Origin: Planctomycetota bacterium
GTDB lineage: Bacteria > Planctomycetota > B15-G4 > SIAN01
DNA: 64,000 nucleotides
Direction of reading: 5' to 3'
Assembly: GCA_016795285.1 (NCBI GenBank)
Contig: JAEUIC010000025.1
Location: forward strand, 124,001 to 188,000
The notes below the pieces were generated by a model. The model did no database searches. It saw nothing but the letters and a program-made list of their open reading frames with translations, and was not told where the DNA came from. Made by a program: the position numbers and the translations under genes. Positions 9,594-22,759 of the stretch are shown here, in pieces (position 1 is the first letter of the stretch; every line of letters begins with the position of its first letter).

Positions 9594-11742
9594 CGGGGTC
9601 GGGTTCGGAGTCGGGTTCGGGGTCGGCCTCGCGAGCGACGGGCTCGGCGCCGTTGGCGCTGCCGTTCGCGCTGCCGTTGGCGCCGCTCGTCCCGTTCGCC
9701 CCGCCGGGTCCGCTCGCGGCAGCGGCCGGGACGGCCGGCGCCTCGCCCGCGGGCGCGCCGTGCCCTTCGCCGGCGTGCGGGTCGCCCTCGAGGTAGACCC
9801 CCTCCTCGGCCAGCAGCGCCTGCCACTCCTCGACCGCCTCCATCTGCAGCGCCAGCACGCGCGGCCCGAGCCGCTCCTGCACCAGCTTCTTCACCTCGGC
9901 CCGCTGCAGCAGCGCGTCGATCACCTCGCGATGGCGCGCCGTCAGCAGGAGCGCCGGCCGCAAGCTGACGAAGCGCACCTTCTCGGCGTACTCGCGGATC
10001 GAGAAGACGATGTTCTGCGGCAGGTCGATCTGCGAGTGGGCGGCGAGCGTGTCGAGGATCTCCGCGGCGGTGAGGCCGCCGGCGATCGCCCGCTCGACCG
10101 AGCGCGGCGTGATGCGGAAGCGGTGGGCGTCGTCGGGCGCGACGCGCTCGGCGAAGCGGTCGAGCCGCTGGATGAGGTCGTAGGCGTCCGCTTCGGGCAG
10201 CAGCAGCACCTCGAAGTCGGAGTTGACCAGCAGGCGGCTCGTGGCCGGCGGCGTCTCGCTCTCGGCGAGGCCGAGCGCCTTCACCGCGAGCGGCGTGAGG
10301 CACAACATCACCGGCCGCCCGGCATCGACGGCGACATCGAGCAGGCCGAGCAGGTGGAGCTCCTCGCCGAGGAAGCCGCCGACCACCTGGCCGAGCTGCG
10401 GCAGGTCGCGCAGGTGCGCTTCGGGCGAGTACTGGAAGCGGCTCTGGTACGCCTCGCGCAACCCCGCGGCGTCGAGCTGCGCGAGGTAGCGCTGCCGCAC
10501 CGCGCCGACGAAGAGCTGGAAGTCGTACCAGCGGCCGGGCTTCAGCTCCTTCAGCCGCTCGAGCGCGAGCTTGCGCAGGCGCGGCGGATGGAAGGCGCGC
10601 CCCGGATCGTCGAGCAGCGCGGTCAGCAGCTCCTTCAGCTTGAAGTGGACCGAGAGGCGCGGCCAAGTCTTGCCCTTCGCGGTGAGCTGCAGCGTCCGTT
10701 CCGGCGTGCGCTTCAGCAGGTGGCGCTGCAGCGCGAGGTCGAGCAGGAAGTTGAAGAGCTTCTCGGCCGGGAAGTCGCCCTTCGAGCCGAGGATCAGCTC
10801 GTCCTCGATCTTCTTGGCGGCGGCGCGGTAGATCTGCCCGCCCTGCGTGTAGCGCACCTTGTCGCGGGTGAGCCGCTCCATCAGCAGCGAGAGGTCGGAG
10901 AGCAGGTCGACGCCGAGCGTGCGCACGCGCGCCGGAGCGGCCGGCTGGGCCGCGCCGCGCCGCTCGAGCTCGGCGGCGAGGATCTCCTCGAACAGGACGA
11001 TCGTCTCGTCGAAGTGGTTGATGCCGTACTCGCCGAGCGCGAGGTGGCGCACCGTGCCCAACCGCTCCGCTTCGAGCGCCTCCTTCACCTCGCGCCGCTT
11101 GCCGCCCGACGGATCGAGCACGGCGCGGCCCACCAGCGCGCGCGGCAGCAGGCCGCCGCCCGGCAGCAGCGCCCGCTCGTAGAGATCGCGCACCTCGGCC
11201 GGGAGGCGTTCGACCCGCTGGCCGACCGCCTCCGGCGCGAGCAGCAGCGCGGCCTCCTCGCCCGCCGCGAAGTCGGGACGCGCCTCGAGCAGCTTCTTCA
11301 GCGAGAACGACGCCGACAGCTCGAGGTCGAGGTCGGTCAGCTCGCGCTGCAGGATCTCGCCGAGCTCGGTGGCGATCACGTAGCGCGGCGACTCGTTGTC
11401 GGCCACCACGCGCGCGAAGAGGAAGCCGCGCTGCAGCAGCGCGCGCACCGCGGCGTCGACTTCGTGCGGGCTCATGAAGGCGAAGCTGCGCGCGGCGCGG
11501 ATCGACTCGAGGTCGGCCTCGAACGAGCGGCGCGACAGGAAGAAGCGCAGCAGGTCGACCAGCTTCTTGCCGAGCAGGCGCAGCCGGCGGCGCACCAGCC
11601 CGTCGTCGGTCATCAGCCGAGCGAGCTCGACCACCAGCTCGGTGCCGGGCGCGGCGCGCTGCCCGTCCCCCTGCCAGAAGCCGTGCAGCTCCCCTTGCAG
11701 CGCCGGGCTCTGCAGCCGGAGCAGTTCCTCGAGTCGCGTCAT
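9547..11742 (-). CDS. XPB partner protein with Helicase_C_3-type domain
   Basis: A 731-residue protein without helicase motifs. Residues from about 525 to 640 (RLLVNSDFEVLLLPE, then RFRITPRSVERAIAGGLTAAEIL, then LPQNIVFSIREY) match the N-terminal domain of the adjacent XPB helicase (LWVQSDRTILLE, YRITPLSLWNAAAVGVTAAQVV, PSQNVLHDIEDF), the Helicase_C_3 / XPB-Ssl2 N-terminal family. The first 500 residues are mostly helical with winged-helix-like stretches. The last 90 are low-complexity Ala/Gly/Asn then Asp-Pro-Glu repeats. ATGA overlap with the helicase gene argues for a complex. From memory, mycobacterial XPB (Rv0861c) also has a neighbour of this type. Function: probable partner or regulator of XPB in DNA repair, inferred. 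Confidence 0.75.
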   Translation of the reverse strand: MTRLEELLRLQSPALQGELHGFWQGDGQRAAPGTELVVELARLMTDDGLVRRRLRLLGKKLVDLLRFFLSRRSFEADLESIRAARSFAFMSPHEVDAAVRALLQRGFLFARVVADNESPRYVIATELGEILQRELTDLDLELSASFSLKKLLEARPDFAAGEEAALLLAPEAVGQRVERLPAEVRDLYERALLPGGGLLPRALVGRAVLDPSGGKRREVKEALEAERLGTVRHLALGEYGINHFDETIVLFEEILAAELERRGAAQPAAPARVRTLGVDLLSDLSLLMERLTRDKVRYTQGGQIYRAAAKKIEDELILGSKGDFPAEKLFNFLLDLALQRHLLKRTPERTLQLTAKGKTWPRLSVHFKLKELLTALLDDPGRAFHPPRLRKLALERLKELKPGRWYDFQLFVGAVRQRYLAQLDAAGLREAYQSRFQYSPEAHLRDLPQLGQVVGGFLGEELHLLGLLDVAVDAGRPVMLCLTPLAVKALGLAESETPPATSRLLVNSDFEVLLLPEADAYDLIQRLDRFAERVAPDDAHRFRITPRSVERAIAGGLTAAEILDTLAAHSQIDLPQNIVFSIREYAEKVRFVSLRPALLLTARHREVIDALLQRAEVKKLVQERLGPRVLALQMEAVEEWQALLAEEGVYLEGDPHAGEGHGAPAGEAPAVPAAAASGPGGANGTSGANGSANGSANGAEPVAREADPEPDSEPDPDADPDPDADPAPRRA
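9565..9635. repeat. Short tandem repeat in the tail of the XPB partner gene
   Basis: Repeats of a 6-base unit (GG-T/A-TCGG type, imperfect 12-base period) encode the acidic Asp-Pro-Asp/Glu-Pro tail of the partner protein. The same bases contain both candidate ATG starts of the thiE-like gene, so length change here would alter one protein tail and possibly the next gene's start. Confidence 0.6.
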
Positions 11743-13415
11743 GGCAGCTCCGCCTGACTCGCGATCCGGTAGGTGTAGCCCCGCTCCGTGAGGTAGCGCT
11801 GGCGACGCTCGGCGCACTCCTCCTCCTTCGTGTCCTTCGACACGAGGGAATAGAAGGTCGCCGGCGCGCCGCTGCTCTTCGGACGCAGGATGCGGCCGAG
11901 GCGCTGCGCCTCTTCCTGCCGCGAGCCGAAGGTGCCGGAGACCTGCACGGCGACGTTCGCGTCGGGCAGGTCGATGGCGAAGTTGCCCACCTTCGACACC
12001 ACGAGGACCGGGATGCGGCCCTCCTTGAACGCGCGATAGAGGCGCTCCCGTTCCGCCGTCGGCGTCTTGCCGACGATCAGCGGGGCGTCGATCGCCTTGG
12101 CCATCGCCTCGATCTGCTCGAGGTACTGGCCGATCACCAGGACATGGTCGCCGCCGTGCTTCGCCAGGATGCGGCGCAGCACCGGCAGCTTGTCGGGGTT
12201 CTCGCTGGCGAGGCGGAACTGGTCGCGGCTCTGCAGCGAGAGGTACTGGATGCGCTGCTCCTGCGGGAGGGGCACGCGCACCTCGATGCAGTGCGCCTCG
12301 GCGATCCAGCCGAGCGTCTCGAGCTCCTTCCACGGCATGTCGAAGCGCTTCGGCCCGATGAGGCTGAAGACGTCGTCCTCGCGGTGGTCCTCGCGCACCA
12401 GCGTGGCGGTCAAGCCGAGGCGGCGGCGCGCCTGCAGGTCGGCGCTGGCGCGGAACACCGGCGCCGGCAGCAGGTGGACCTCGTCGTAGACGATCAGCCC
12501 CCAGTCCTTGGCCGCGAACAGGCCGAAGTGGGTGAACGGCGTCGCCCCCTTCTCCTTGCGGTGCGTGAGGATCTGGTAGGTCGAGATCGTGATCGGGCGG
12601 ATCTCCTTGCGATCGCCGGTGTACTCGCCGACGTCCTCGGCCGGCACGTTCGCCTTGTCGATCAGCTCCGACTTCCACTGCCGCACCGCGACGGTGTTGG
12701 TGGTGAGCACCAGCGTCTCGCACTGCAGCTTCTCGATCACCGCCATCGAGACCACGGTCTTGCCGGCGCCACACGGCAGCACGATCACGCCGCTGCCGCC
12801 GCGCTCGCTGCCGCCGGCGTGGAAGAGCTCGGCCGCGTGGCGCTGGTAGGGGCGCACCGTGAACGGCTTGCCGGAGAGCGTCGTCGTGCGCAGCTCGAAG
12901 CGGTAGGGCGCGCCGGGCGTGTAGCCCGCCACGTCGTCGACCGGGTAGCCGAGCTTGAGCAGCGTCTGCTTCACCTCGCCGCGCGACAGCTCGTCGAGGC
13001 GCAGCGCGCCGTCTTGCTCGGTGGCGAGCGTCCACTTCGCCAGCACGCCGGCCGCGACGAAGTCGGCCAGCAGCTTCGCGTCGCCCGACTCGAGCACGAG
13101 CCCGGCGGCGCGGCGCACCAGCCGCAGCAGCCCGTAGCGGCGCAGGAAGTCCTCGATGTCGTGCAGCACGTTCTGCGACGGCGGCTCGCGGCTCATCCGC
13201 TGCAGGAAGTCGACCACCTGCGCGGCCGTCACGCCGACCGCCGCCGCGTTCCAGAGCGAGAGCGGCGTGATGCGGTAGGTGTGGAACCGCTCCGGCGACT
13301 TCTCGAGCTCCGCGAAGCGCGGCAGGAACGCCTGCGCCTCGCCAGCCAGCGCGTGGCCGACCTCGAGGAGGATCGTGCGGTCCGACTGCACCCAGAGCGG
13401 ACGATCGCTGCTCAT
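11739..13415 (-). CDS. XPB-family DNA repair helicase
   Basis: A 558-residue superfamily 2 helicase of the XPB/ERCC3 type, a 3'-5' ATP-dependent DNA translocase. In order: N-terminal Helicase_C_3-type domain (about residues 5-95), Walker A VLPCGAGKTVV, TNTVAVRQWKSEL, motif II YDEVHLLPA (DEVH, as in XPB), GLTATLVREDHREDD with the XPB-specific RED motif, then the second RecA domain with VVSKVGNFAIDLPDANVAVQ and RQEEAQRLGRILRPK. The ATG overlaps the uvrA stop (ATGA) and its own stop overlaps the partner gene start. In eukaryotes XPB opens DNA in nucleotide excision repair; direct coupling to uvrA suggests a similar job here. Confidence 0.93.
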   Translation of the reverse strand: MSSDRPLWVQSDRTILLEVGHALAGEAQAFLPRFAELEKSPERFHTYRITPLSLWNAAAVGVTAAQVVDFLQRMSREPPSQNVLHDIEDFLRRYGLLRLVRRAAGLVLESGDAKLLADFVAAGVLAKWTLATEQDGALRLDELSRGEVKQTLLKLGYPVDDVAGYTPGAPYRFELRTTTLSGKPFTVRPYQRHAAELFHAGGSERGGSGVIVLPCGAGKTVVSMAVIEKLQCETLVLTTNTVAVRQWKSELIDKANVPAEDVGEYTGDRKEIRPITISTYQILTHRKEKGATPFTHFGLFAAKDWGLIVYDEVHLLPAPVFRASADLQARRRLGLTATLVREDHREDDVFSLIGPKRFDMPWKELETLGWIAEAHCIEVRVPLPQEQRIQYLSLQSRDQFRLASENPDKLPVLRRILAKHGGDHVLVIGQYLEQIEAMAKAIDAPLIVGKTPTAERERLYRAFKEGRIPVLVVSKVGNFAIDLPDANVAVQVSGTFGSRQEEAQRLGRILRPKSSGAPATFYSLVSKDTKEEECAERRQRYLTERGYTYRIASQAELP

Positions 13416-16400
13416 GCGCGCGCCTCCGACGGTAAGGCGGTGCGCCGCGCGGCACGTCCGCGCAGCAGCGGCGCGAGCGCGCGGCCGGTGTGCGACGCGG
13501 CGCAGGCGGCGACCGTCTCCGGCGTGCCGGCGACGACGAGCTGCCCGCCCGCTGCGCCGCCGTCGGGGCCGAGGTCGACGATCCAGTCGGCGCTCTTCAG
13601 CACGTCGAGATGGTGCTCGATCACCAGCACCGAGCTGCCGCGCTCGACCAGCCGGTGGAAGACGGCGACCAGCTTCTGCACGTCGGCGAAGTGGAGTCCG
13701 GTGGTCGGCTCGTCGAGCAGGTAGAGCGTCTTGCCGATGCTCGGCCGCGCGAGTTCCGCAGCGAGCTTGACGCGCTGCGCCTCGCCGCCCGAGAGCGTCG
13801 TCGACGACTGCCCGAGCTTCAGGTAGCCGAGCCCGACGTCCTGCAGCACCTGCAGCGTCCGCTTGATGCGCGGGTGGCTCGCGAAGAAGGCGAGCGCCTC
13901 CTCCACCTCCATCTGCAGCACCTCGGCGATGTTCTTGCCCTTGTAGCGCACCGTCAGCGTCTCGGCGGCGTAGCGCGCACCGCGGCACGCCTCGCACGGC
14001 GTCCAGACGTCCGACAGGAAGTGCATCTCGACCAGCACCGCGCCGCGCCCCTGGCACGCCTCGCAGCGGCCGTCGCCCTGGTTGAAGGAGAAGCGCACGG
14101 GCGTGAAGCCCTTCATGCGCGCCTCCTCGGTGGCGGCGAAGACGGCACGGATCGGGTCGAAAACCTTGGTGTAGGTGGCCGGGTTGCTGGACGGCGTGGT
14201 GCCGATCGGCGACTGGTCGATGACGATCAGCTGCTTCACCTGGTCCAAGCCGTCGATGGCGCGGCAGCCCGCCTGCGCCACCGGCAGCTTCACGCCGGCG
14301 AGCAGCGCCTCGACGGCCGGCCGCACCACCTCCATCAGCAGCGTCGACTTGCCCGAGCCCGACACGCCGGTCAGCGCGGTGAGCGTGCCGAGCGGCAGCG
14401 CGACGTCGAGCCCCTTCAGGTTGTGGCGCGTCGCGCCGCGGACGAGGAGCTTGCCGCTCCCCTTGCGCCGCTCCGCCGGCGTCGCGATCGCCGCGTCGCC
14501 GCGCAGCCACGCGCCGGTGAGCGACGTCGCGCACGCCTCGATGGCGGCGAACGGGCCGCTCGCGACCACTTCGCCGCCATGCACGCCGGCGCCGGGGCCG
14601 AGGTCGACGATCCAGTCGGCCGCGCGCATCATCTCCTCGTCGTGCTCGACGACGATGATGGTGTTGCCGAGCTTCTTCAGCCCCTGCAGCGTCTCGATCA
14701 AGCGGCCGGTGTCGCGCGGATGGAGGCCGATCGACGGCTCGTCCAGCACGTACATGCAGCCGACCAGCCCGCTGCCGAGCTGCGTCGCCAGCCGGATGCG
14801 CTGCGCCTCGCCGCCCGACAGCGTCGCCGAAGCGCGCTCGAGCGTCAGGTAATCGAGGCCGACGTCGACCAGGAAGCGCAGCCGGCCGCGCACCTCCTGC
14901 AGCGGCTGCGCGGCGATCTGCTGCTCCGCCTTCGAGAGCCCCGCCTTCGGCAGCTGCGCGAAGAAGTCGAGCGCCTCGCCGACCGTGAGGCGCCCCACCT
15001 CGCGCAGCCCCTGCCCGCCGACCGTGACCGCCAGCGCCTCGGGCTTCAAGCGCCCGCCGCCGCAGCTCGGGCAGCTCCCCTCCTCGGTGAGCTTCAGGAG
15101 CTTCGCGACCCACCACTTCCCTTCGTCGGCCTCGCGCACCCAGTGCTCGATCTCGCCGAGGATGCCGCGGAAGCGCGCGCTGAAGGTGTACTCGCGCGAC
15201 TTCTGCACGTTCTTCGTCGCGAGCGTCGTGGTGACGCGTTCCGGCACGCCGACGCCGCGCAGCAGGCCGGCGCGCGCCTTGGCCGGGAGCTTCGCGAACG
15301 GCACCTCGAGATCGACGTCGAGCTCGCGCGCGGCCCCTTCGAGGATGCTGCGGTGCCAGCCGCCCTTCTTGGTGAAGAGGCGACCGGGGAAGTCGGTGAG
15401 CAGCGCGCCGCCGAAGAGCGGCTTGTGCGGCGCGACGATCACCCGCTCCTCGACGCTGCGCCGCATGCGGCCGAGGCCGAGGCATTCGGGGCAGGCGCCG
15501 AGCTGATGGTTGAAGCTGAAGTGGCGCGGCGAGAGTTCCGCCTCGGGATACCAGCCGCACTTCTCGCACGACGGCCGCGTCGACCAGTCGAGCCGGGTGG
15601 TCGTGCCGTCGGCCGCCTCGAGCTGCACGCCGGCCAGTCCGCCGCCCTTGCGGAACGCCTCCTCGAGCGCTTCGGCGAGGCGCGTGCGCTTGCCCGGCTC
15701 GACGCGCACGCGATCGATCACCAGCGCGATCTCGCGCTGCGCGAGCGGCGCCGCGTTCGCCGCCGCGTTCGACGCCGCGTTCGCCGCTCCGGCGAGTTCG
15801 TCGACGCGCCGCTCGACGCCGTCGATCAGCAGGCGGAGGTAGCCGTCGGCTTGCAGGCCGGGCAGCGCCGCGGCGAGTTCGTCGGCGCGCGTGAAGCGCA
15901 GCGGCCGGCGCGCCTCGGCCCGCCAGAGCGGCGCCAAGAGGAGCGCCTTGCCCCCCGCGCCGCGCTCGACGAGGTCGGCCGCGGCGGTGGTCGCCGACCA
16001 GGCGCGCGCTGCGGCGCCGCAGGTCGGGCAGTGCGGCAGGCCGATGCGCGCCCACAGCAGGCGCAGGTGGTCGTGGATCTCGGTGGTGGTCGCGACGGTC
16101 GAGCGCGGGTTCTTCGAGCCGCCCTTCTGGTCGATGGCGATGGCCGGCCGTAGCCCGTGGATGCGGTCGACCGGCGCGCGCTCGAGGCGCGAGAAGAAGC
16201 GGCGCGCGTAGGTGGAGAGCGACTCGACGAAGCGGCGCTGCCCCTCGGCGAAGAGCGTCTCGAAGGCGAGCGACGTCTTGCCCGAGCCGGAGACGCCGGT
16301 GATCACGGTCAACGCGTCCTGCGGCAGCTCGACGTCGATGCCGCGCAGGTTGTTCTTGCGAGCGCCGCGCACGACGAGGCGGCGCGGATCGTCGTCGGGG

Positions 16401-19303
16401 TGCGGCGTCGCGCGCTCGTAACGCGGCGTCGTGGCGCCGTCGCTGCCGATCGGCGGCGGGTCGAGCACGTCGCGCAGGTACCGGCCGGTGTGCGACCCCT
16501 TCGCCTTGGCGATCTGCTCGGGCGTGCCCGCCGCGACCAGCTTGCCGCCGCCGCCGCCCCCTTCCGGCCCGAGGTCGAGCAGCCAGTCGCACTGCGCGAT
16601 CACCTCGAGGTGGTGCTCGATGACCAGCACCGTGTTGCCGCGCTCGACCAGCGCGTGGAGCGCCGCCATCAGCTTCTTCACGTCCTCGACGTGGAGCCCG
16701 GTGGTCGGCTCGTCGAGGATGTAGAGCGTGCGGCCGGTCTCGGGGCGCGCCAGCTCCGCGGCCAGCTTGATGCGTTGCGCCTCGCCGCCGCTCACCGTCG
16801 TCGACGGCTGGCCGAGGCTCATGTAGTCGAGCCCGACGTCGACCAGCGTCTGCAGGATGCGCCGCACCTTCGGCACGTTCTGGAACCAGCCGACCGCGTC
16901 GCCGATCGACGCGTCGAGCAGCTCGTGCACGTCGCGCCCGCCCCACTTCACCTCGAGCGTCTCGCGGTTGAAGCGCCGCCCGCTGCACTCCTCGCAGGTC
17001 ACCTCGACGTCGGCGAGGAACTGCATCTCGATGGTGCGCACGCCCGCGCCGCCGCACGTCTCGCAGCGGCCGCCGGCGACGTTGAAGCTGAAGCGCCCCT
17101 TCTTCCAGCCGCGCGCCTGCGCCTCGGGCGTCGCCGCGAAGAGGTCGCGGATCAGGTCGAAGAGGCCGGTGTAGGTGGCCGGGTTGCTGCGCGGCGTGCG
17201 GCCGATCGGCGCCTGGTCGATCTCGATCACCTTGTCGATCGCCTCGACGCCGGTGAGCTTGTCGAACGCGCCGGGCGGCTCGACCGCGCCGTGCAGCTGG
17301 CGCGCGAGCTCGCGCTTCAGCACCAGGTGCACGAGCGTCGACTTGCCCGAGCCCGAGACGCCGGTCACGCCGATCAGGCAACCGAGCGGCAGCTCGACGT
17401 CGACGCCCTTCAGGTTGAACTGGCGCGCCCCTTCGAGTCGCAGCTTCGCGCCGCTCCCCTTGCGCCGTGTCGTCGGCAGCGCGAGCCGCTCCTCGCCGCG
17501 CAGGTAGCGCGCGGTGAGCGAGTCGCCCTTCGCGACCACCTCGGCGACCGGGCCCGACGCGACCACGTGGCCGCCCCGCTTGCCGGCGCCCGGCCCGACG
17601 TCGACCAGCCAGTCGGAGGCGAGCATCGTGTCGCGGTCGTGCTCGACCACGCAGACGGTGTTGCGCCGGTCGCGCAGCTCGTGCAGCGTGCGCAGCAGCA
17701 GGTGGTGGTCGCGCGGATGGAGGCCGATCGACGGCTCGTCGAGCACGTAGAGGACGCCCTGCAATCCGGCGCCGACCTGCGTGGCGAGCCGCACGCGCTG
17801 CGCCTCGCCGCCCGAGAGCGTCGCCGCGCTGCGATCGAGCGTGAGGTAGCCGAGGCCGACCTCGGTGAGGAAGCGCAGCCGCCCGCGCAGCTCGCGCAGG
17901 ATCGCCGCGCCGACCAGCTCGTCGCGCTTCTCGAGCAGCGCGTCGCTGGCGAAGAAGGCGACCGCGGCATCGACGGTGAGCGCGGCGTAGTGGGTGATCG
18001 GCTGCTCGCGGAAGGTGACCGCGAGCGCCTCCTTGCGCAGGCGCGCGCCGGCGCAGCCGCGGCAGCTCATCTCGGTGAGGAACTTCTCGAGGTGCTTCGG
18101 GTGGCTCGTGCGCCAGGTCTCCTCCATCGCCGGGAGGATGCCGGGCAGCGCACGATGGTCCTCGCCCTTCACCGTGAAGCCGCTGGTCGCCGACTGGTAC
18201 TCGAACTTGAGGCGGATCGCCTCGTCGGTGCCGTGCAGCAGCGCCCGCTTCGCCGCTTCGGGCAGCGAGCGCCACGGCTGGTCGAGCCGGAAGCCGAGCT
18301 TCTTGCCGAGCTGCGCGAGCGCGCTCATGCGCAGCTTGAGGTAGGGCAGGTAGCCGGTCTTGGTCATGATCGCGAGCGCGCCGCCCTCGATCGACTTGCC
18401 GGCGTCGGGGATCACCTTCTTCGGGTCGACGCGCATCGAGCGGCCGAGCCCGTTGCATTCGGGGCAGGCGCCGTGCGGCGAGTTGAAGCTGAAGAGGCGC
18501 GGCTCCATCTCGGGCAGGCCGAGGCCGCAGCCGGGGCAGGCGAGCTTGCCGGAGAACTCGACCAGCTGTCCCTTGCCGCCGTCGCGCTCGATCCACGCGG
18601 AGGCCTGGCCGTCGCAGAGCCGCAGCGCTCCCTCGAGCGCCTCGGCGACGCGGCCGCGCTTCTCCGCGTCGAGCACGATGCGATCGGTGACCAGCTCGAT
18701 GGTGTGCGTCTCGTAGCGCGCGAGCGTCAGCGGCTCGTCGAGGCGCTTCAGCTCCCCGTCGATGCGGGCGCGCACGAACCCCTTGCGGCGCCACTGTTCG
18801 AGTTCGGTCCGGTAGTGCCCCTTGCGGCCGCGCACCACCGGCGCCAGCACGAGGCAGCGCGCGCCCGGATGGTCGCGCAGCAGCGTGTCGGCCATCTGGT
18901 CGGCGGTCTGCGCCTGCAGCACGCGGCCGCAGCCGACGCAGTGCGGGGTGCCGAGCCGCGCGAAGAGGAGGCGCAGGTAGTCCCAGATCTCGGTGACGGT
19001 CGCGACGGTGCTGCGCGGGTTGCGGTTGACCGTCTTCTGGTCGATCGAGAGGGTCGGCGAGAGGCCGGTGATGCTCTCGACCTTCGGCTTCTCCATGCGG
19101 CCGACGAACTGGCGGGCGTAGGAGGAGAGCGACTCGAGGAAGCGGCGCTGCCCCTCCCGGAAGAGGGTGTCGAAGGCGAGCGACGACTTCCCGGAGCCCG
19201 AGACCCCGGTGAAGGTGATCAGCGCGTCGCGAGGGAGGGTCAGATCGACCCCCTTCAGGTTGTGCTCGCGCGCACCTCGGATGACGATGTTTTCGTGCAC
19301 CAT
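13412..19303 (-). CDS. uvrA: Double-length excinuclease ABC subunit UvrA
   Basis: A 1963-residue protein equal to two complete UvrA chains in tandem (normal length about 940). UvrA recognises bulky DNA lesions as a dimer and loads UvrB. Four ATP sites are present: GVSGSGKSSLAFDTLF, GVSGSGKSTLVHL, GVSGSGKTSLAFETLF and GVSGSGKSTLLMEV, each with its own LSGGEAQR- or VSGGEAQR-type signature. Both halves retain their zinc Cys pairs (for example CETCGGAGV with CEECSGRR, and CEACQGRGA with CEACRGARY). Neither half looks degenerate. An Asn/Ala-rich insertion lies in the second half (around 15740-15790). The start is ATG 19303 (GTG 19309 is possible). Chlamydial UvrA is also a double-length fusion, so the form is known but uncommon. 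Confidence 0.96.
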   Translation of the reverse strand: MVHENIVIRGAREHNLKGVDLTLPRDALITFTGVSGSGKSSLAFDTLFREGQRRFLESLSSYARQFVGRMEKPKVESITGLSPTLSIDQKTVNRNPRSTVATVTEIWDYLRLLFARLGTPHCVGCGRVLQAQTADQMADTLLRDHPGARCLVLAPVVRGRKGHYRTELEQWRRKGFVRARIDGELKRLDEPLTLARYETHTIELVTDRIVLDAEKRGRVAEALEGALRLCDGQASAWIERDGGKGQLVEFSGKLACPGCGLGLPEMEPRLFSFNSPHGACPECNGLGRSMRVDPKKVIPDAGKSIEGGALAIMTKTGYLPYLKLRMSALAQLGKKLGFRLDQPWRSLPEAAKRALLHGTDEAIRLKFEYQSATSGFTVKGEDHRALPGILPAMEETWRTSHPKHLEKFLTEMSCRGCAGARLRKEALAVTFREQPITHYAALTVDAAVAFFASDALLEKRDELVGAAILRELRGRLRFLTEVGLGYLTLDRSAATLSGGEAQRVRLATQVGAGLQGVLYVLDEPSIGLHPRDHHLLLRTLHELRDRRNTVCVVEHDRDTMLASDWLVDVGPGAGKRGGHVVASGPVAEVVAKGDSLTARYLRGEERLALPTTRRKGSGAKLRLEGARQFNLKGVDVELPLGCLIGVTGVSGSGKSTLVHLVLKRELARQLHGAVEPPGAFDKLTGVEAIDKVIEIDQAPIGRTPRSNPATYTGLFDLIRDLFAATPEAQARGWKKGRFSFNVAGGRCETCGGAGVRTIEMQFLADVEVTCEECSGRRFNRETLEVKWGGRDVHELLDASIGDAVGWFQNVPKVRRILQTLVDVGLDYMSLGQPSTTVSGGEAQRIKLAAELARPETGRTLYILDEPTTGLHVEDVKKLMAALHALVERGNTVLVIEHHLEVIAQCDWLLDLGPEGGGGGGKLVAAGTPEQIAKAKGSHTGRYLRDVLDPPPIGSDGATTPRYERATPHPDDDPRRLVVRGARKNNLRGIDVELPQDALTVITGVSGSGKTSLAFETLFAEGQRRFVESLSTYARRFFSRLERAPVDRIHGLRPAIAIDQKGGSKNPRSTVATTTEIHDHLRLLWARIGLPHCPTCGAAARAWSATTAAADLVERGAGGKALLLAPLWRAEARRPLRFTRADELAAALPGLQADGYLRLLIDGVERRVDELAGAANAASNAAANAAPLAQREIALVIDRVRVEPGKRTRLAEALEEAFRKGGGLAGVQLEAADGTTTRLDWSTRPSCEKCGWYPEAELSPRHFSFNHQLGACPECLGLGRMRRSVEERVIVAPHKPLFGGALLTDFPGRLFTKKGGWHRSILEGAARELDVDLEVPFAKLPAKARAGLLRGVGVPERVTTTLATKNVQKSREYTFSARFRGILGEIEHWVREADEGKWWVAKLLKLTEEGSCPSCGGGRLKPEALAVTVGGQGLREVGRLTVGEALDFFAQLPKAGLSKAEQQIAAQPLQEVRGRLRFLVDVGLDYLTLERASATLSGGEAQRIRLATQLGSGLVGCMYVLDEPSIGLHPRDTGRLIETLQGLKKLGNTIIVVEHDEEMMRAADWIVDLGPGAGVHGGEVVASGPFAAIEACATSLTGAWLRGDAAIATPAERRKGSGKLLVRGATRHNLKGLDVALPLGTLTALTGVSGSGKSTLLMEVVRPAVEALLAGVKLPVAQAGCRAIDGLDQVKQLIVIDQSPIGTTPSSNPATYTKVFDPIRAVFAATEEARMKGFTPVRFSFNQGDGRCEACQGRGAVLVEMHFLSDVWTPCEACRGARYAAETLTVRYKGKNIAEVLQMEVEEALAFFASHPRIKRTLQVLQDVGLGYLKLGQSSTTLSGGEAQRVKLAAELARPSIGKTLYLLDEPTTGLHFADVQKLVAVFHRLVERGSSVLVIEHHLDVLKSADWIVDLGPDGGAAGGQLVVAGTPETVAACAASHTGRALAPLLRGRAARRTALPSEARA

Positions 19304-19335
19304 CCGCACACGACCGTCGAGGCCTGACCGCTGGA

Positions 19336-19352
19336 TTTCCGCGGCGCGGAAA
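19336..19352. promoter_or_regulatory. Inverted repeat upstream of uvrA, possible operator
   Basis: TTTCCGC-GGC-GCGGAAA is a perfect 7-base inverted repeat with a 3-base centre. It lies between uvrA and the acyl-CoA dehydrogenase gene, just downstream of a candidate uvrA -10 at 19362-19367. Its position near the expected transcription start would suit a repressor site; it does not resemble the lexA upstream box. Confidence 0.45.
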
Positions 19353-21566: not shown

Positions 21567-21610
21567 CGGCTTCTTCCCCCTCAGGTTCCGGCTCGGGCGA
21601 GCGTGTTAAC

Positions 21611-21625
21611 GAACGCAAAACGAAC
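21611..21625 (-). promoter_or_regulatory. Candidate SOS box GTTC-N7-GTTC upstream of lexA
   Basis: Read on the lexA coding strand the sequence is GTTCGTTTTGCGTTC, a direct repeat of GTTC with a 7-base spacer, which is the form known for alphaproteobacterial LexA. It overlaps an 8-base palindrome GAACGTTC (21622-21629) and a GTTAAC palindrome (21605-21610). Position and form support a LexA operator. Confidence 0.6.
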
Positions 21626-21717
21626 GTTCAAGCCCCTGGTTGCTCCCCTGACTTTCCCATGGATCTTCACGCCGGCGCGGAAGCGACCGCGCGCGCAGCG
21701 GCGGCCCCACGACGGCC

Positions 21718-21733: not shown

Positions 21734-22759
21734 ATGCCGCTCCTCTTCGACGCGCATCGCCGACCGCTGCGGAGCCTCCGCCTCTCGGTCACCGATCGCT
21801 GCAACCTGCGCTGCGCCTACTGCATGCCGGAGGAGGAGTATCGCTGGCTCGAACGCGCCGCGCTGCTCTCCTTCGAGGAGCTCGCGCGGCTGGTCGACCG
21901 CTTCCTCGCGCTCGGCGTCACCAAGGTGCGCCTCACCGGCGGCGAGCCGCTGCTGCGCCGCGACCTCGACGTGCTGGTCGCCGCGCTCGCGACGAAGCCG
22001 GGGCTCGCCGACCTCGCGCTGACCACCAACGGCTTGCTGCTCGCCGAGCAAGCGGCGGCGCTGAAGCGCGCCGGCCTCCACCGCCTCACGGTCAGCATCG
22101 ACACGCTCGACCCGCGCCGCTTCGAGCAGCTCACGCGCCGCTCGGGCCACGACGCGCTGCTGGCCGGCATCGAGGCGGCGCGGCGCGCCGGCTTCCGCGA
22201 CCTGAAGCTCGACACCGTCGTGCTGCGCGGCGTGAACGACGACGAGGTCGTGCCGCTGCTGCGCTACGCGCAAGGGATCGGCGCGGAGATCCGCTTCATC
22301 GAGTACATGGACGTCGGCGGTGCGACCCGCTGGAGCCGCGCGCAGGTGGTGCCGCGCGCCGAGCTGCTGGCGACCGTCGCCGCGGCGTTCGGCCCGGCGA
22401 CGCCGCTCCCCGATCGCGACGGCGCCCCCGCCGAGCGCTTCGCGCTGCGCGACGGCACCACCTTCGGGATCATCGCCTCCACCACCGCCCCCTTCTGCGC
22501 GAGCTGCGATCGCAGCCGGCTCACCGCCGACGGCATGTGGTTCACCTGCCTCTACGCGACGCAGGGGCTCGACCTGCGCGGGCCGTTGCGCGCCGGCGCG
22601 AGCGACGCGGAGCTCGAAGCGCTGCTCGCCCCGCGCTGGCAGGCGCGCAGCGATCGCGGCGCCGAGGAGCGCCTCGCATTGCACGAGCGCGCGCCCTTCG
22701 CGCCGCTCGCCACGCTGCAGGGCGACCCGCACCTCGAGATGCACACGCGCGGAGGGTGA
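21734..22759 (+). CDS. moaA: GTP 3',8-cyclase MoaA
   Basis: A 341-residue radical-SAM enzyme starting molybdenum-cofactor synthesis by converting GTP to 3',8-cyclo-GTP. The N-terminal cluster motif is CNLRCAYC (Cys-x3-Cys-x2-Cys), followed by LTGGEPLLRRD and TTNGLLL. The second 4Fe-4S site that binds GTP is formed by CASCDRSRLTADGMWFTC. The chain ends in RGG, the conserved C-terminal Gly-Gly. ATG 21734 is chosen because it directly precedes the homologous region and follows a TATAGT element; there is no Shine-Dalgarno. It heads a three-gene run. The cofactor would serve the molybdoenzyme at 31-33 kb. Confidence 0.95.
   Translation: MPLLFDAHRRPLRSLRLSVTDRCNLRCAYCMPEEEYRWLERAALLSFEELARLVDRFLALGVTKVRLTGGEPLLRRDLDVLVAALATKPGLADLALTTNGLLLAEQAAALKRAGLHRLTVSIDTLDPRRFEQLTRRSGHDALLAGIEAARRAGFRDLKLDTVVLRGVNDDEVVPLLRYAQGIGAEIRFIEYMDVGGATRWSRAQVVPRAELLATVAAAFGPATPLPDRDGAPAERFALRDGTTFGIIASTTAPFCASCDRSRLTADGMWFTCLYATQGLDLRGPLRAGASDAELEALLAPRWQARSDRGAEERLALHERAPFAPLATLQGDPHLEMHTRGG

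Follow-up and report, generated by a model that had tools for sequence, protein, structure and literature searches.

Which DNA sequence does LexA read in a planctomycete, and how did a direct repeat of the kind known from alphaproteobacteria come to stand before a planctomycete lexA gene? In the open-access literature that we searched we found no published LexA-binding motif for Planctomycetota; one paper (PMC3108266) says no more than that the E. coli motif is not recognised by planctomycete LexA. We analysed a stretch of 64,000 nucleotides, here called the window, from a 5.77 Mb, 47-contig assembly (G000) whose nearest relatives are Planctomycetota MAGs. The window's order is treated as three families: f1, with G000, its congeners G001 and G002 in genus g1, and G003; the sister family f2 (G004, G006, G008, G010); and f3 (G005, G007, G009, G011-G013). 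The comparison covers few genomes, mostly MAGs, with gene starts taken from our own gene caller.

A direct repeat upstream of a complete lexA gene

Judged by its domains and catalytic residues, the product of the window's lexA is a full LexA repressor. It scores 168.6 bits against TIGR00498 (cut-off 110.95), with a LexA-type winged HTH (PF01726, 48.8 bits) and an S24 peptidase domain (PF00717, 105.9 bits). We refer to this protein and its close counterparts as type A; the Ala-Gly, Ser-Met and Lys residues are kept in 7/7 type-A proteins (AAG, or VAG in G003). The sequence-only reading of this DNA had claimed a GTTC-N7-GTTC direct repeat upstream of lexA, and we recovered it. The putative SOS box, GTTCGTTTTGCGTTCG, lies 44 bp upstream of the gene, and within it GTTCGTTTTGCGTTC (21611-21625, on the minus strand, which is the lexA coding strand) is the sole GTTC-N7-GTTC in the window (Table 1). 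Neither of the inverted boxes GAAC-N4-GTTC and CTGT-N8-ACAG was found upstream of the window's lexA.

Table 1. Positions of the features discussed (window coordinates unless a locus is named)
Feature	Position	Strand	Remarks
LexA operator (putative SOS box) GTTCGTTTTGCGTTCG	21610-21625	-	two GTTCG half-sites, 11-bp period
GTTCG half-sites of the lexA box	21621-21625 and 21610-21614	-	
lexA, type A, 248 aa	20820-21566	-	winged HTH, cleavage site AAG, Ser (GSSM), Lys (TLKR)
-35-like hexamer TTGAAC	21626-21631	-	17 bp before -10; abuts first half-site
-10-like hexamer TAACAC	21603-21608	-	abuts second half-site
GAACGTTC palindrome	21622-21629		junction of TTGAAC and first half-site
GTTAAC palindrome	21605-21610		junction of TAACAC and second half-site
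moaA-like gene	21734-22759	+	divergent neighbour of lexA; arrangement also in G001
uvrA, tandem UvrA-UvrA fusion	13412-19309	-	no box upstream
TTTCCGCGGCGCGGAAA inverted repeat	about 19336-19352		upstream of uvrA
Gene for LexA-like protein lacking cleavage site, Ser and Lys	L065:1217-1834 (G000 C23); L362:854-1474 (G001 C10)	-	DNA-binding domain intact

A 64-kb window should hold 1.15 copies of this pattern by chance, so the single copy is not significant as a bare count; its significance comes from comparison with relatives. Genome-wide we counted 105 copies against 35 of the reversed pattern, a number that reflects how often GTTC-N7-GTTC arises by chance in coding DNA; the rate is about 0.004 per 200 bp, and still lexA and recA each own one. 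When a position weight matrix (PWM) was trained on the lexA boxes of relatives only, with the window left out, the window site ranked first at 23.5 bits, and the second-best site in the window reached 15.2 bits. The genome-wide ranking of boxes was built on pattern searches and selected stretches. Separately, we observed that GTTCCGGGAGCGTTC, which is present in about 20 mostly intergenic copies in this genome (e.g. L001, L023, L066, L326) and has none in the window, pushes up the GTTC-N7-GTTC counts. Further high-scoring intergenic copies, for example before a 438-aa protein without a family (C16) and an NMT1-like protein (C22), were left out of the target counts.

The uvrA gene is not an obligatory member of the SOS regulon. 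The sequence-only reading had suggested that the window's uvrA may lie outside the LexA regulon, and our results agree: no GTTC-N7-GTTC box was found upstream of it, where the best PWM score is 5.8 bits versus 23.5 for the lexA site. The TTTCCGC inverted repeat described there is present as TTTCCGCGGCGCGGAAA, with no sign of use by LexA. UvrA itself, at 1965 aa, looks like two fused copies, and its match to the long-UvrA model PRK00635 falls short of that model's cut-off; directly downstream of the gene lies a gene for an XPB/RAD25-type helicase (11739-13391; PF16203, 162 bits).

The box is conserved before SOS genes in two families

Type-A LexA occurs in f1 and f2, and GTTC-N7-GTTC precedes its gene in all seven genomes of these families in which the upstream region is present (the G002 gene, cut by a contig end, lies outside the seven). 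Among 80 LexA loci scanned, the pattern was found before six: four of type A and two from Gemmatimonadota, the latter being the only carriers among the 76 loci of other types. Alphaproteobacterial LexA sequences were added separately, because they would probably have failed the peptide patterns used to narrow the contig scan for LexA.

The box also stands before recA in 4/4 f1 genomes, as an identical 16-mer, GTTCTACTTTCGTTCG, in G000, G001 and G002 and as GTTCTTAAATCGTTCG in G003. For f2 recA no box was found in G004 and G008, and G010 has only GTTCGTAGAACGTTAG, a 7/8 match. In all four f2 genomes, boxes precede both the imuA-imuB-dnaE2 mutasome (before imuB in G010) and, in the opposite orientation, a PA0069-type radical-SAM gene (NF033668; “splB-like”). 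The splB-like box of G010 is common to the divergent lexA, and in G004 the operon of a type-B lexA (see below) is preceded by a box as well; before the splB-like genes of g1 none was found. Enrichment before SOS genes, which the sequence-only reading had named as its own check, is thus seen at lexA and recA in f1 and at lexA, imu and splB-like genes in f2. The scan of imuB and dnaE2 that it proposed gave a divided answer: the f2 cassettes carry the box, whereas those of the window's genus have an E. coli-like box and no GTTC-N7-GTTC.

An unbiased search of the upstream regions of type-A lexA and f1 recA, covering every direct or inverted 4-mer repeat with gaps of 0-16, returned direct GTTC with gap 7 as the top motif, in 11/11 regions; 100 dinucleotide shuffles gave a maximum of 4 for any repeat. 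Nineteen boxes yield the consensus GTTCGNNTTTCGTTCG (26.7 bits). Because the search patterns already fixed 8-10 of its letters (GTTC/GTTC, and C11 and G16 for some sites), what was learned independently is confined to G5, the T-rich spacer, and C11/G16 at those sites where they had not been prescribed. The type-A half-site extends to GTTCG, with a preferred spacer NNTTTC.

The box lies in or beside a putative promoter

At the loci compared, the box falls between, or touches, -35/-10-like elements. Before f1 lexA it occupies the 17 bp from TTGAAC to TAACAC (TTGACT/TACCAC in G003), with an offset of -6 in G000 and G003 and, by eye, a like arrangement in G001. Before f2 lexA, where the spacer also measures 17 bp, TTGTTC and the first half-site overlap and the offset is -2; f2 splB-like promoters have an offset of -4/-5. 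The f1 recA box begins right after TAGGAT in G000, G002 and G003 (offset -31 in G000 and G003). Of the 12 positions in the promoter hexamers only 7-9 match, and a stricter scan with the standard consensus found no promoter; the elements rest on offsets that recur across genomes. The automatic best match fell elsewhere for lexA of G001 and G010, recA of G001 and G002 and some imu genes, while in G001 and G010 the arrangement of box and promoter at lexA is recognisable by eye. From this layout, steric repression would be the natural inference.

The layout also accounts for the GAACGTTC and GTTAAC palindromes, which had been reported from the sequence upstream of lexA and are indeed present there: they exist because the -35 TTGAAC and the -10 TAACAC touch the half-sites. 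They are not conserved as such, as G003 has GACTGTTC.

Three LexA proteins in one genome

The window's genome encodes three LexA paralogs. LexA2, with an E. coli-like HTH, heads imuA-imuB-dnaE2 at C11:309-316 kb. Upstream of it stands TACTGT-N8-ACAGTA, perfect in G001 and G002 and with one mismatch in G000; no other site in any of the three genomes comes within one mismatch of this pattern. We observed this cassette with its E. coli-like box at L245 (G000), L243 (G002) and L295 (G001). The third LexA-like protein, encoded on C23 beside a purF-like gene, is without the Ala-Gly, Ser and Lys residues, and the same loss is seen in G001; kept in two congeners, it is possibly a non-cleavable repressor. 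A different LexA-like group has CCAGAC...GTCTGG-type palindromes upstream, at L238 (G003, by imu genes), L294 (G016) and L293 (G026).

Direct repeats elsewhere in Planctomycetota

Are direct repeats out of place in Planctomycetota, as the sequence-only reading implied? The common planctomycete LexA, which we call type B, speaks against this. GTTN-N7-GTTN precedes 14 of the 27 type-B lexA genes (shuffle mean 2.7, maximum 7; the next best gap reaches 7/27), and f3 recA has GTTA-N7-GTTA in 6/6 genomes tested, all with the 11-bp period. When f3 is excluded, gaps 7 and 8 come out level at 12 each of 45 regions; the phylum-wide direct repeat rests largely on the window's order, together with clear single cases in G014, G039, G043, G049 and G026. 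An inverted motif near f3 lexA (GTTA with gap 14, among others) was set aside, since the direct repeat is the stronger of the two when GTTC-N7-GTTA is counted as well. As a side observation, a short ORF (about 25 codons), whose translation looks like a membrane peptide (e.g. MIREILAKESLTVATMLMMLLAFLYI), lies between the SOS box and type-B lexA at L044, L042, L038 and L056 (f3) and L231 (G004); it could be an SOS-induced small membrane protein.

What the box does and where it came from

By every sequence test available this is a direct-repeat SOS box, which LexA would bind. We put at roughly 0.9 the probability that it is the autoregulatory operator of type-A LexA, with binding, repression and inducibility as predicted properties. 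A LexA dimer would bind the two GTTCG half-sites, which face the same way and are spaced by one turn of DNA, and would so block the promoter, in which the box takes up the 17-bp spacer. On DNA damage, activated RecA would cause LexA to cleave itself at Ala-Gly via its Ser-Lys dyad, and lexA and recA would be derepressed; in f2 the same box would control lexA, the splB-like gene and the mutasome. The sequence-based parts of this explanation are the box, its conservation, the gene set, the promoter offsets and the catalytic residues of LexA. We discarded linker length as the cause of direct-repeat reading, because in G003 the linker of the type-A protein is short.

Could the box be something else? 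That it is a chance copy, as the expectation of about one per window would allow, is a practically negligible prospect, given that it is conserved upstream of orthologous genes in both families and that the genome rate is low. It is scarcely credible, too, that LexA binds the adjacent GAACGTTC (or GTTAAC) and that the direct repeat is incidental: both palindromes are there, and GAACGTTC recurs in G001, but the replacement in G003 and the junction origin described above count against them, the direct repeat persists without palindromes in every f2 lexA box and in every box of recA, imu and splB-like genes, and the unbiased search, although it allowed inverted repeats of every gap, still put the direct repeat first. 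A box in or beside the core promoter, in a genome with three LexA paralogs, might instead serve another regulator common to these promoters or reflect a constraint on promoter sequence. We hold this to be highly improbable, since the box type tracks the LexA type (GTTC-N7-GTTC with type A, TACTGT-N8-ACAGTA with LexA2), the targets are the standard SOS set, and the orientation of the box flips before splB-like genes while that of the promoter does not, which speaks against the promoter constraint in particular.

A further alternative concerns origin, namely that lexA and its box were acquired from an alphaproteobacterium. GTTC-N7-GTTC is the alphaproteobacterial LexA box (PMC8565304, PMC3323433), and as a positive control we saw this geometry before the alphaproteobacterial lexA genes compared. 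The geometry is identical, and lexA adjoins moaA (molybdenum cofactor) here and the molybdotransferase gene glp in two alphaproteobacterial loci; moaA, however, adjoins lexA only in f1. We nevertheless judge such an acquisition very unlikely. In a tree that includes alphaproteobacteria (a short search with SH-aLRT only and six alphaproteobacterial sequences from plasmid/chromid records), their LexA forms its own clade (SH-aLRT 100), apart from type A (98). Type A is one clade (100/98) that stands beside Chloroflexota LexA, with support of 99/90 without alphaproteobacteria and 89 with them, and it is also apart from type B. The recognition helices are unlike (SPTTVFQHLKALE or AASTIHQTLSTLA versus SKSGIHRLITALE), and the type-A proteins of f1 and f2 split along family lines. 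The label “alphaproteobacterial-type” therefore holds for the geometry of the box and is not supported for the lineage of its presumed reader or for the half-site, which is longer (GTTCG). Single-gene trees of such length are soft; the link between type A and Chloroflexota LexA is the weakest part of the argument.

Returning to the operator reading, we suggest tentatively, and at somewhat short of even odds because the phylum-wide repeat rests largely on the window's order, that GTTM-N7-GTTM with its 11-bp period is the old geometry of SOS operators in this phylum. A LexA of foreign lineage (nearest sampled: Chloroflexota) would have taken over SOS control in two families and come to read the same geometry, and in one genus the resident LexA would have lost self-cleavage. 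In that case the layout would have survived the replacement of its repressor and come by convergence to match that of alphaproteobacteria.

The conserved box and its target genes in two families make the Planctomycetota SOS response testable. They also point to a second lineage with a LexA that seems to recognise direct repeats, and to a genome in which two cleavable LexA proteins have different addresses and a third is apparently non-cleavable.

Comparison with known systems

The element is of a known kind; what is new is the LexA lineage and the phylum. With the alphaproteobacterial box it shares the half-site core, the direct orientation, the 11-bp period and the place upstream of lexA, but its presumed planctomycete reader is a LexA of another clade, its half-site is GTTCG with the preferred spacer NNTTTC, and at f1 lexA it takes up the 17 bp that separate TTGAAC from TAACAC. 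The repeats of type-B LexA (GTTA/GTTC/GTTG-N7) agree with the type-A box in direct-repeat geometry, spacing and phylum, whereas they belong to a different LexA clade and often have A or G in place of C at half-site position 4. The GAAC-N4-GTTC box of Firmicutes and Actinobacteria (PMC3323433), carried by two Chloroflexota loci in the 80-locus scan, has the same GAAC/GTTC half-sites, and type-A LexA groups with a Chloroflexota LexA; that box is inverted with gap 4, however, and was not found before the type-A lexA of the relatives either. Finally, Pseudomonas putida has a lexA2-imuA-imuB-dnaE2 cassette and a double LexA regulon (PMC3901139, PMC5261740). As there, the second LexA of g1 heads its own imuA-imuB-dnaE2 cassette apart from the main LexA; unlike there, g1 combines a direct repeat as its main box with an E. 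coli-like second box (TACTGT-N8-ACAGTA).
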